Of a DNA stretch of 64,000 nt, positions 14,477 to 17,625 are shown piece after piece (position 1 is the stretch's first letter; each line of letters begins with the position of its first letter). The stretch is from positions 1 through 64,000 of the forward strand of contig JACRPN010000014.1 of NCBI GenBank assembly GCA_016223145.1, in the 5' to 3' direction. The notes beneath the pieces were generated by a model that ran no database searches, was not told where the DNA came from, and worked only from the letters and a program-made list of their open reading frames with translations. The DNA is from Armatimonadota bacterium (GTDB taxonomy: Bacteria; Armatimonadota; Fimbriimonadia; Fimbriimonadales; Fimbriimonadaceae). A program made the translations under genes and the position numbers.

Positions 14477-15097
14477 CTACATCGTCCCATAGAGCCGGTC
14501 GCCGAAATCCCCGAGGCCGGGGAGGATGTACTTCCGGTCGTTGAGGCCACGGTCGAGCGCCGCCGTAACGATATCCACATCTGGGTGGTCGGCATTGAGC
14601 TTGGCGACGCCTTCGGGCGCTGAAACCACGCTGACCATGGTCACGGACGCGGCCCCATTGGCCTTCAGCAGGGAAATCGCCTGGGAGGCTGAGCCCCCGG
14701 TGGCAAGCATTGGGTCCACGCAGAGCGTGTAGCGTCCCGCCAACTTCGGAAGCTTGCAGTAGTAGCTATGCGCGATCGCCGTGTCTTCGTGGCGCTCAAG
14801 CCCGATGTAGCCAATCGAAACGTCGGGGAACATCTCGACGATTGGGTCGAGCATCCCTAGCCCCGCGCGAAGGACTGGAACTACCGCCAACCCGGCTCCC
14901 AATGTGGACGCCTCGGCCGTTTCGAGCGGCGTTTCGACCGATCCTGCAGTCCTTGGCATCGCACGAGTCGCCTCGATCACCAGAAGCCGCGTGAGGTTGG
15001 CGCAGAGGGTCCTGAACTTCTCCGGTGGCGTTTTCTTGTCGCGAAGACCGGCGAGCAAATGGTTCGCCAGAGGGTGGTCGAGCACGAGGAGCGACAT
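14477..15097 (-). CDS. upp: Uracil phosphoribosyltransferase
   Basis: A 206-residue enzyme that makes UMP from uracil and PRPP in pyrimidine salvage. Family motifs are clear: VVPVLRAGLGMLDPIVEMFP, YIGLERHEDT, the PRPP loop VDPMLATGGSASQAI and the C-terminal uracil-binding LPGLGDFGDRLYGT. The ATG at 15097 gives the normal length; CACAAT lies 6 nt before it, so it may be leaderless. Its substrate PRPP is produced by prs at 16657, encoded divergently nearby. Confidence 0.95.
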   Translation of the reverse strand: MSLLVLDHPLANHLLAGLRDKKTPPEKFRTLCANLTRLLVIEATRAMPRTAGSVETPLETAEASTLGAGLAVVPVLRAGLGMLDPIVEMFPDVSIGYIGLERHEDTAIAHSYYCKLPKLAGRYTLCVDPMLATGGSASQAISLLKANGAASVTMVSVVSAPEGVAKLNADHPDVDIVTAALDRGLNDRKYILPGLGDFGDRLYGTM

Positions 15098-15103
15098 GGA
15101 TTG

Positions 15104-15109
15104 ATTGTG
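15104..15109 (-). promoter_or_regulatory. -10-like CACAAT, 6 nt before upp start
   Basis: Read on the minus strand, CACAAT-N6-ATG; no Shine-Dalgarno site fits in the gap. Part of the window-wide leaderless pattern. Confidence 0.5.
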
Positions 15110-15188
15110 CCCTGTTTGCAGGCTCTTTGCCTTTGCCGGCACACAATCGCAAATGCGCCAAGGCTTTTCCACAGACCCCTTCCTTAAG

Positions 15189-15217: not shown

Positions 15218-15259
15218 GCCTTTGGGACGGCCCGTCCGCCTGCTTGGAGGTCTGCAGCC

Positions 15260-16657
15260 ATGTTAACCGCGAACGCCCACGGGATCATTTTGGCAACGGG
15301 TCAAGCCGAAGCCGCCACCGGTGGCATCGCCCCACCGTTGCTGAATGCCTGCGGCACGCCGTTGGTCGAACTGGTGGTTTCGGCCTTTCGGGGCGTCGGC
15401 GTTGCGACGCCGACCGTCGTGGTCGAGGAGCCATCGGGACAGGCGATACGTGAGGCGTTGGGAACGGGCGTCCAGATAGCTTGGGCGGACAGGCCCCTTG
15501 CCGATGCCGCCGCCCTCAATGCTGCAAGCAGCCTGTTTGAGGAGGCGCGCGGACCTGTCCTCGTCGCGTGCGCGACCACCGGCTTGCTGACCTCCGCAGA
15601 GTTGCGGGCCCTTCTGGTTCAGCACGCCGACGCCCGCGCCGCCGCCACGATTGCGACCATGCGGCTTCAGGAACCCTCAGGGCATGGGCGCGTCGTCCGA
15701 GACCCTCATGGCAAGGTTGCGCGGGTCGTTCAGGAGCAGGACGCCAACCCTCGAGTGCGCGCCATCCAAGAGATCTGCGCTGAGGTCTACTGTTTCGATG
15801 CGCAGGTGCTGTTCGCCATGCTCCCACGGCTGATTGCCGAGCGCGGCGCCGCACCTACGCCTCTGGCCGATATTTTCGAACTCATTTATGAGGCCGGGGG
15901 GACGATCGAGACGCACGTCTTCGACGATTCCGGGACGTTCCAGCGTGCAAAGGGCCTCTGGGACCTTGCGGTTCTCACCGGTGTGCTCCGCCAGCGCATC
16001 TTGAAGAAGCATTGCGGCCAGGGCGTGCTCATTACAGACTTGGACACAACCTTCATCTGCCACGACGTCGAAATCGGCTCTGGAACGCGCATCGAGCCCA
16101 TGACCTCGATCCTGGCCGGCACAAAAGTGGGCGCAAGCTGCCACGTCGGCCCGCAGTCGTTCGTCTCACAATCGGTAATCGAGGACGGCGCATCCGTGTT
16201 CATGAGCCAGGTGAGCGGCGCGACGGTTAAGAAGGGGGCCAGGGTCGGCCCGTTTGCCAACCTTCGGCCCGGAGCCGTCATCGGCGAGGGCGCGAAGGTC
16301 GGAAACTTTGTCGAGGTGAAGAACGCTTCCCTTGGCAAAAAGGCCAGCGTTTCGCACCTGGCCTATATAGGCGATGGAACCGTCGGCGACGAGACCAACA
16401 TCGGCGCGGGCGTGATCTTCTGCAACTACGACGGGGTTCACAAGAACCGAACGGAAATCGGGGACAACGCATTCGTTGGCTCCAATTCGACATTGATCGC
16501 ACCGGTGACCATCGGCGATGGCGCGCTGGTTGCGGCTGGAAGTGTGGTGACCCACGACGTCCCGGCCGATGCCGGAGCGTTTGGGCGTTCTAGACAAGAA
16601 ACGAAAGAGGGGTGGGCCAAGAAATGGCGTCAGCGGAAACAGGTGGAGTCAACTTGA
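15260..16657 (+). CDS. glmU: GlmU-like protein: intact acetyltransferase, degenerate uridylyltransferase
   Basis: A 465-residue protein with the two-domain GlmU layout, which normally makes UDP-GlcNAc from GlcN-1-P. The left-handed beta-helix acetyltransferase half (residues about 260-455) is canonical: VGPFANLRPGAVIGEGAKVG, FVEVKNASLG, HLAYIGDGTVG, NIGAGVIFCNYDG and LIAPVTIGDGALVAAGS. In the N-terminal half the usual LAAGxGTRM...PKVLH loop reads LATGQAEAATGGIAPPLLNA, the Mg-binding GD of YGDVPL reads CATTG (residues 104-108), the GTGHA motif is gone and GVNDR reads DSGTFQ, although GHGRVVRDPHGKVARVVQEQDA still shows descent. Ribosome site GGAGG precedes the ATG; prs follows with a one-base overlap. 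Confidence 0.9.
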   Translation: MLTANAHGIILATGQAEAATGGIAPPLLNACGTPLVELVVSAFRGVGVATPTVVVEEPSGQAIREALGTGVQIAWADRPLADAAALNAASSLFEEARGPVLVACATTGLLTSAELRALLVQHADARAAATIATMRLQEPSGHGRVVRDPHGKVARVVQEQDANPRVRAIQEICAEVYCFDAQVLFAMLPRLIAERGAAPTPLADIFELIYEAGGTIETHVFDDSGTFQRAKGLWDLAVLTGVLRQRILKKHCGQGVLITDLDTTFICHDVEIGSGTRIEPMTSILAGTKVGASCHVGPQSFVSQSVIEDGASVFMSQVSGATVKKGARVGPFANLRPGAVIGEGAKVGNFVEVKNASLGKKASVSHLAYIGDGTVGDETNIGAGVIFCNYDGVHKNRTEIGDNAFVGSNSTLIAPVTIGDGALVAAGSVVTHDVPADAGAFGRSRQETKEGWAKKWRQRKQVEST

Positions 16658-17625
16658 TGGAAGGTGTGAGCGAGCTTCATGACATGAAGCTCTTCGCAGG
16701 CAACGCGCATCGCGAATTGGGCGTCCGAGTGGCCGAGTATCTCGGCATCGACGTCGGCGCGATGACCGCCACACGGTTCAGCGACGGCGAGATCCGCGTG
16801 CTGGTCGATGAGAGCGCGCGCGGCAACGACGTGTTTCTCCTGCAGCCCACCTGCAACCCGGTGAACGACTCTCTGATGGAGCTCCTGATTCTTTTGGACG
16901 CCTTTCGTCGAGCCTCCGCGCGGCGCATCACCGTGGTCATCCCCTACTTCGGCTATGCCCGTCAGGACAAGAAGACCAAGCCGCGCGAACCTATCACCGC
17001 ACGGCTCGTGGCGGACTTGATCCAGGTTGCCGGCGCCCATCGCGTGGTGTGTGTGGACCTGCACGCCGAGCAGATCATGGGCTTCTTCGACATTCCGGTC
17101 GACCACCTCTATGCCGGGCCGATCATCGGGCGCTACATGCTGGATCACGGCATGGGCGAGGACGACGTGGCCGTCGTCAGCCCGGACGTTGCCGGCGTGA
17201 CCCGAGCGCGGGCCCTTGCCGAAATGCTCAAAGCGCCCCTGGCGATCGTCGCCAAACGCCGCCCCGAGCCGAACAAGGTCGACATCATGGAAATCGTCGG
17301 CGACGTGGCGGGCAAGAAGTGCATCATGATTGACGACATGATTGACACCGGCGGCTCGGTCATCCAGGGCGCGGAGGCCTTGCTCAAGCGCGGAGCGACC
17401 GACGTCATCGTGAGCTGCACCCACCCGGTCCTCTCGGGCAATGCGAGCCAGAGGCTGCAAGACAGCGTGATTTCGCGCGTCATCACCATGGACACGCTGC
17501 CGATCCCCAGCGAGAAGATGTTCCCGAAACTCACGGTGCTGCCAATTGCGCCACTGGTCGCCGAGGCGATCCGTCGCATCCACACCAACCGCTCGGTCAG
17601 CAGCCTGTTCAACTCCTGGCGCTGA
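16657..17625 (+). CDS. prs: Ribose-phosphate pyrophosphokinase (PRPP synthetase)
   Basis: A 322-residue enzyme making PRPP from ribose-5-phosphate and ATP. Motifs: LFAGNAHRELGVRVAEYLG, FSDGEIRV, PYFGYARQDKK, VDLHAEQIMGFFDIPVDHLYA and the PRPP loop MIDDMIDTGGSVIQGA. I chose the ATG at 16657 because it overlaps the glmU TGA (TGATG) and has AGGTGGAG nine nt upstream; an ATG at 16624 would extend it by 11 residues. glmU-prs adjacency is common in bacteria and links UDP-sugar and nucleotide synthesis. Confidence 0.95.
   Translation: MEGVSELHDMKLFAGNAHRELGVRVAEYLGIDVGAMTATRFSDGEIRVLVDESARGNDVFLLQPTCNPVNDSLMELLILLDAFRRASARRITVVIPYFGYARQDKKTKPREPITARLVADLIQVAGAHRVVCVDLHAEQIMGFFDIPVDHLYAGPIIGRYMLDHGMGEDDVAVVSPDVAGVTRARALAEMLKAPLAIVAKRRPEPNKVDIMEIVGDVAGKKCIMIDDMIDTGGSVIQGAEALLKRGATDVIVSCTHPVLSGNASQRLQDSVISRVITMDTLPIPSEKMFPKLTVLPIAPLVAEAIRRIHTNRSVSSLFNSWR

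Follow-up and report, generated by a model that had tools for sequence, protein, structure and literature searches.

A GlmU with a degenerate uridylyltransferase domain and an intact acetyltransferase domain in an Armatimonadota bacterium, and candidate enzymes for the missing step

GlmU, a drug target, is a textbook case of an essential cell-wall enzyme with two functions. Here, we asked how a bacterium of the Armatimonadota (family Fimbriimonadaceae) could obtain UDP-GlcNAc when the uridylyltransferase half of its GlmU appears to have lost its catalytic site. The gene lies in the window, that is, the whole stretch of 64,000 nucleotides that was analysed (GenBank assembly GCA_016223145.1, contig JACRPN010000014.1), at 15260..16657 on the forward strand (465 aa, with the stop codon included in the coordinates), and its ATG is preceded by a good ribosome-binding site, GGAGG at 15246-15250. 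The product matches the TIGR01173 profile over its full length (385.7 bits against a cut-off of 366.85; residues 9-456) and aligns almost without gaps, over residues 6-454, to Staphylococcus aureus GlmU (PDB 9dqf; E 1.4e-93), while falling below the threshold of the stricter profile NF010934 (403 vs 450). By sequence, the open reading frame is GlmU from end to end, with full-length homology to, and the two-domain fold of, bifunctional GlmUs (TIGR01173; S. aureus 9dqf, Escherichia coli 1hv9). It is followed by a prs-like gene (ribose-phosphate diphosphokinase; 16657..17625, +), the likely ATG of which shares one base with the glmU stop, and is flanked by a divergent uracil phosphoribosyltransferase-like gene (14477..15172, -), both names coming from reading the sequence alone. 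The glmU-prs order, also shared by relatives of the window GlmU, recurs in genomes G183, G121, G123, G189 and G113.

The uridylyltransferase (N) domain (residues 1-235; 15260..15964, +) is degenerate. In a comparison with GlmU of E. coli K-12, taken from its genome record, and 11 intact relatives, 15 of 38 invariant columns are retained, and PF00483 matches the domain at 36.7 bits. The GxGTRM...PK nucleotide-binding loop survives as the remnant LATGQAEAATGGIAPPLL (15290..15343, +; G16A, T17E, R18A and K25P in the alignment, E. coli numbering), and the LQAEQLGTGHA uracil-binding segment as QIAWADRPLADAAA (15473..15514, +; Q76A, Q79P, G81A, T82D); at the position of the Mg-binding YGD motif stands CAT (15569..15577, +; G104A, D105T), and at that of GVN stands RAK (15944..15952, +; G225R, N227K). 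The substitutions A13T, Y139H, E154Q and Y197P complete the set. Unlike bifunctional GlmUs, which have the uridylyltransferase catalytic residues, the window protein carries A, P, A, T and K in place of R18, K25, Q76, D105 and N227; K25, Q76 and D105 have been described as absolutely required in Haemophilus influenzae GlmU (PMC10128056). The absence of N169 means little, since this residue is also missing from several relatives with an intact GlmU. The two halves differ greatly in their divergence: nine intact GlmUs of the class share on average 30.8% identity with the N-domain and 52.1% with the C-domain, whereas the corresponding values for a species of the same genus, G070, are 49.1% and 51.9%. 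In both same-genus species, G070 and G071, GlmU is intact. We infer that the window GlmU has lost its uridylyltransferase activity.

The fold appears to have outlived the active site. The N-domain aligns end to end without a large gap, and retains its length as well as the GHGRVV and D157 segments, in keeping with the common descent from GlmU that the preliminary description of this DNA had proposed for it. An AlphaFold2 model built with five aligned sequences matches GlmU over the whole length, with block pLDDT mostly 76-94 in residues 21-220 and an unreliable C-terminal tail, and its N-domain superimposes on the nucleotidyltransferase 4ecm with Z 26.1 and 2.3 Å over 228 residues; a bias towards that fold is possible, because intact GlmUs were part of the underlying alignment. 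Catalytic residues at shifted positions, which the preliminary description had named as evidence against its reading, were looked for and are not there: the 9dqf alignment is nearly gapless, the first Lys or Arg of the protein is R44, residues 1-120 contain no Lys, and a stretch of 43 residues without Lys or Arg means that the catalytic basic residues have not merely moved. The other two reading frames over glmU contain stops, and GTRM was found in neither. A frameshift or a chimera can thus be set aside together with a shift of residues, given also that the glmU-prs order is kept. The end-to-end alignment and the predicted fold point instead to a pseudoenzyme domain, in which the fold is kept and the catalytic site is gone.

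By contrast, the left-handed beta-helix acetyltransferase (C) domain (residues 236-465; 15965..16654, +) keeps 39 of 40 invariant columns in the same comparison, and all 11 active-site residues that were checked are present (R333, K351, H363, Y366, N377, N386, Y387, K392, S405, A423 and R440), in common with bifunctional GlmUs; their roles are those assigned in GlmU structures. The replacement of the N-terminal motifs beside an intact acetyltransferase half, as first described, is therefore borne out by the column counts, and the window GlmU is most likely an acetyltransferase-only enzyme. The steps that precede it are encoded in the genome, GlmS being 44% identical to the E. coli protein (502 bits) and GlmM 43% (328 bits).

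Degenerate N-domains recur in the phylum. Among 113 genomes of the class, in which one GlmU per genome is the rule, the window protein is the only full-length GlmU with so low a score (385 bits against about 490-583 for other near-full-length GlmUs). Three further groups in the phylum have, like it, an intact acetyltransferase half joined to a degenerate N-domain and followed by a prs-like gene, but the residues and segments lost differ from those of the window GlmU. In the protein of G189 (L193 1486-2871, +), nearly every N-domain motif is lost. In G121 (L205 1459-2721, -) and G123 (L206 847-2094, +), which belong to group g54, the N-domain has about 199 aa and no recognisable site. In G183 (L201 1480-2721, -) the middle of the domain is lost, yet R18, K25 and D105 are kept, so that loss of function is less certain there. 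In G121, G123 and G183 the domain is shortened, whereas the window N-domain has kept its length. Two more genomes, G122 (with G121 and G123) and G184 (with G183), were assigned a degenerate GlmU by score only. Given that GlmU is intact in G070 and G071, on the one hand, and in G124 and others among the relatives of the g54 genomes, on the other hand, the window and g54 losses are independent, and the differing patterns of G189 and G183 raise the estimate, from these sequence comparisons, to at least three and probably four lineages in which the N-domain degenerated independently. In the open-access literature, we came across no earlier GlmU described as having a dead uridylyltransferase domain. 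In the same survey of the phylum, several members (loci L198, L202, L204, L207, L219 and others) encode GlmU-type N-domain proteins without a strong GlmU C-domain match, sometimes two per genome, and a strong GlmU match is lacking altogether in 20 of 237 genomes.

The dead domain is not drifting freely, at least in g54. Between G121 and G123, dN/dS is 0.038 in the degenerate N-domain, compared with 0.014 in the C-domain and 0.019 in prs, and the first of these values means that the g54 N-domain is maintained by purifying selection. The preliminary description had offered two ways out of the missing activity, a separate uridylyltransferase or a new role for the domain, and with this strong selection in g54 the second may hold as well as the first. 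A more specific proposal is that selection retains the dead N-domain for a task other than catalysis, such as sensing UTP or UDP-GlcNAc or, alternatively, bringing the replacement uridylyltransferase into contact with the acetyltransferase, and that GlmU has turned into such a pseudoenzyme-acetyltransferase more than once in the phylum; it is tentative, and we consider it less likely than not.

As to the enzyme that supplies UDP-GlcNAc, we infer that GlmU now probably acts as an acetyltransferase only and that a separate uridylyltransferase took over, most likely a nucleotidyltransferase encoded next to an N-acetylhexosamine kinase, with GlmR (YvcK) a close second and the joint action of both possible. 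GlmS and GlmM would yield GlcN-1-P, which the intact beta-helix half of GlmU would acetylate to GlcNAc-1-P, and the NahK-linked nucleotidyltransferase or GlmR, or the two together, would then form UDP-GlcNAc from GlcNAc-1-P and UTP. Such a redundant uridylyltransferase could have relaxed selection on the catalytic site of GlmU, while a structural or regulatory role would have kept the N-domain in place. The presence of both genes favours the separate-enzyme branch of the original proposal: the search of the genome for a stand-alone uridylyltransferase, which the preliminary description had recommended, turned up these two candidates and no second GlmU.

The first candidate comes from a pair of adjacent genes. 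A NahK-type N-acetylhexosamine-1-kinase (C5:114455-115640 of the genome), which matches NahK (LnpB) of Bifidobacterium longum (4ocu; E 1.1e-68 over 347 residues), adjoins a nucleotidyltransferase of 305 aa (C5:115543-116463; PDB 3pnn, E 1e-95), the motifs of which, GMGSR, K26, KPWGT, NADD, SMNFWG and EFYIP, are conserved in 19 aligned members; the kinase has a 3pnn-type nucleotidyltransferase for a partner, which may set it apart from LnpB. The pair is absent from G070 and G071, the same-genus species with intact GlmU. The same pair occurs, at about 38-48% identity, in each of the three g54 genomes and is missing from G124, their relative with intact GlmU; the link between the pair and GlmU loss accordingly spans two lineages, window and g54. 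Most of the class does without the nucleotidyltransferase, homologues of which occur in 10 of 113 genomes, the window genome included, and since nine class members have a related NahK pair alongside an intact GlmU, the pair permits but does not force the loss. NahK lies directly beside a nucleotidyltransferase of this type in 33 of 87 loci, that of the window genome among them, and the neighbours vary across the others, so that context supports, without proving, a HexNAc-1-P substrate. Judging solely by the adjacency of NahK, the enzyme would use UTP and GlcNAc-1-P. A role with Gal-1-P is possible, by analogy with GalY (Amuc_0031), a predicted hexose-1-P uridylyltransferase for which Gal-1-P is the predicted substrate (PMC5583593). 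Likened by description alone, GalY belongs to the NTP_transferase family and in some genomes, like the g54 pair, is clustered with an epimerase, but is predicted for Gal-1-P, whereas the window enzyme is a candidate for GlcNAc-1-P. In G121 (L264 29-2986, -), an NDP-sugar epimerase comes after the nucleotidyltransferase and NahK, in an order reminiscent of the lacto-N-biose pathway.

In the tree, the window copy of the nucleotidyltransferase falls with those of Verrucomicrobiota, Kiritimatiellota and Lentisphaerota, a placement that suggests horizontal gain. Its grouping with the other holders in the family was rejected (p-AU 0.02, for a group chosen after seeing the tree). A single group of the window and g54 copies was not rejected (p-AU 0.23), a value that falls short of proving that each lineage gained the pair on its own.

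The second candidate, GlmR (C9:43253-44182 of the genome; TIGR01826, 368 bits against a cut-off of 196), contains TDDGGSSG and CNVMTQPGE and hence keeps the catalytic D, D and N, the equivalents of D40, D41 and N198 being assigned by motif. GlmR makes UDP-GlcNAc in vitro (PMC10128056) and has been proposed as the sole source of UDP-GlcNAc in Bacillus subtilis on one medium (PMC13046274). In Listeria monocytogenes and B. subtilis it is an accessory uridyltransferase (PMC10128056, PMC13046274) and GlmU stays the main enzyme, which the window GlmU could not be. Within our overall picture, the narrower version in which UDP-GlcNAc is made mainly by GlmR, with no help from the NahK pair, and that pair only salvages HexNAc and is unrelated to the loss has a substantial, though clearly lesser, chance of being correct. 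The intact catalytic residues and the activity of homologues speak for it, as does the doubled dose in G183 and G184, each with two GlmR copies and a degenerate N-domain; the second copies are shorter (L261 1730-2842, -; L262 1-1112, -). G189, with its dead N-domain, speaks against our main reading, as it has only one GlmR and no NahK pair in an assembly that is 88% complete. However, GlmR was found in every relative tested, including G070, G071 and five other family members with intact GlmU, so that its presence does not discriminate and the difference between the species is left unexplained. The survey of GlmR, the pair, GlmM and GlmS used one concatenated query in 15 genomes. In G124, whose GlmU is intact, N replaces the second catalytic Asp of GlmR (TDNGGSSG; L250 1078-2505, +).

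If either candidate is correct, lineages with a dead uridylyltransferase site would show that this half of GlmU can be replaced; they indicate concrete, if putative, replacements in GlmR and the NahK-linked nucleotidyltransferase, and they are a natural setting in which to learn whether a cell can rely on GlmR as its main UDP-GlcNAc synthase.

The remaining explanations fare worse. The unassembled part of the genome could hide an intact GlmU or a GlmU-type N-domain that stands alone, given that the 23 contigs make up an assembly with a completeness of 97% and that stand-alone N-domains occur elsewhere in the phylum; this is improbable, however, as a single GlmU is the rule in the class and no second strong match was found in other degenerate cases with genomes that are 90-97% complete. 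No second GlmU and, in a scan of the contigs, no relative of the N-domain was found in the window genome; the alternative-type profile TIGR03991 gave no match there, its control scoring only below the cut-off, and neither did the UDPGP family, a weak negative with a weakly matching control.

Slightly less probable still is a takeover by another sugar nucleotidyltransferase, such as the protein at C6:193663 beside a GHMP kinase, which is intact and weakly matched by GlmU profiles and which G070 and G071 lack. It is not favoured, because it most closely resembles GalU, its operon partners indicate another sugar, and none of the 25 other class members with homologues has a low-scoring full-length GlmU. 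It is very unlikely that the N-domain remains active through unusual residues: the domain does retain its length and fold along with the GHGRVV and D157 segments, but it has lost the uracil-binding Gln, both basic residues and the Asp and Asn that bind Mg, and residues 1-43 offer no Lys or Arg. Equally remote is a cell that makes no UDP-GlcNAc de novo and lives on amino sugars salvaged by NahK and its partner nucleotidyltransferase, for although the pair is present, the conservation of GlmS, GlmM and the acetyltransferase residues speaks for a de novo route to GlcNAc-1-P that still works.

The RmlA, ManC, KdsB-like and XdhC-linked MobA-like paralogues of the genome were set aside as ordinary by their neighbours or profiles. 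A sugar operon of the same genome (L002 707-3137, +) encodes a xylose-isomerase-like TIM barrel, a GalU-like nucleotidyltransferase and a GHMP kinase.
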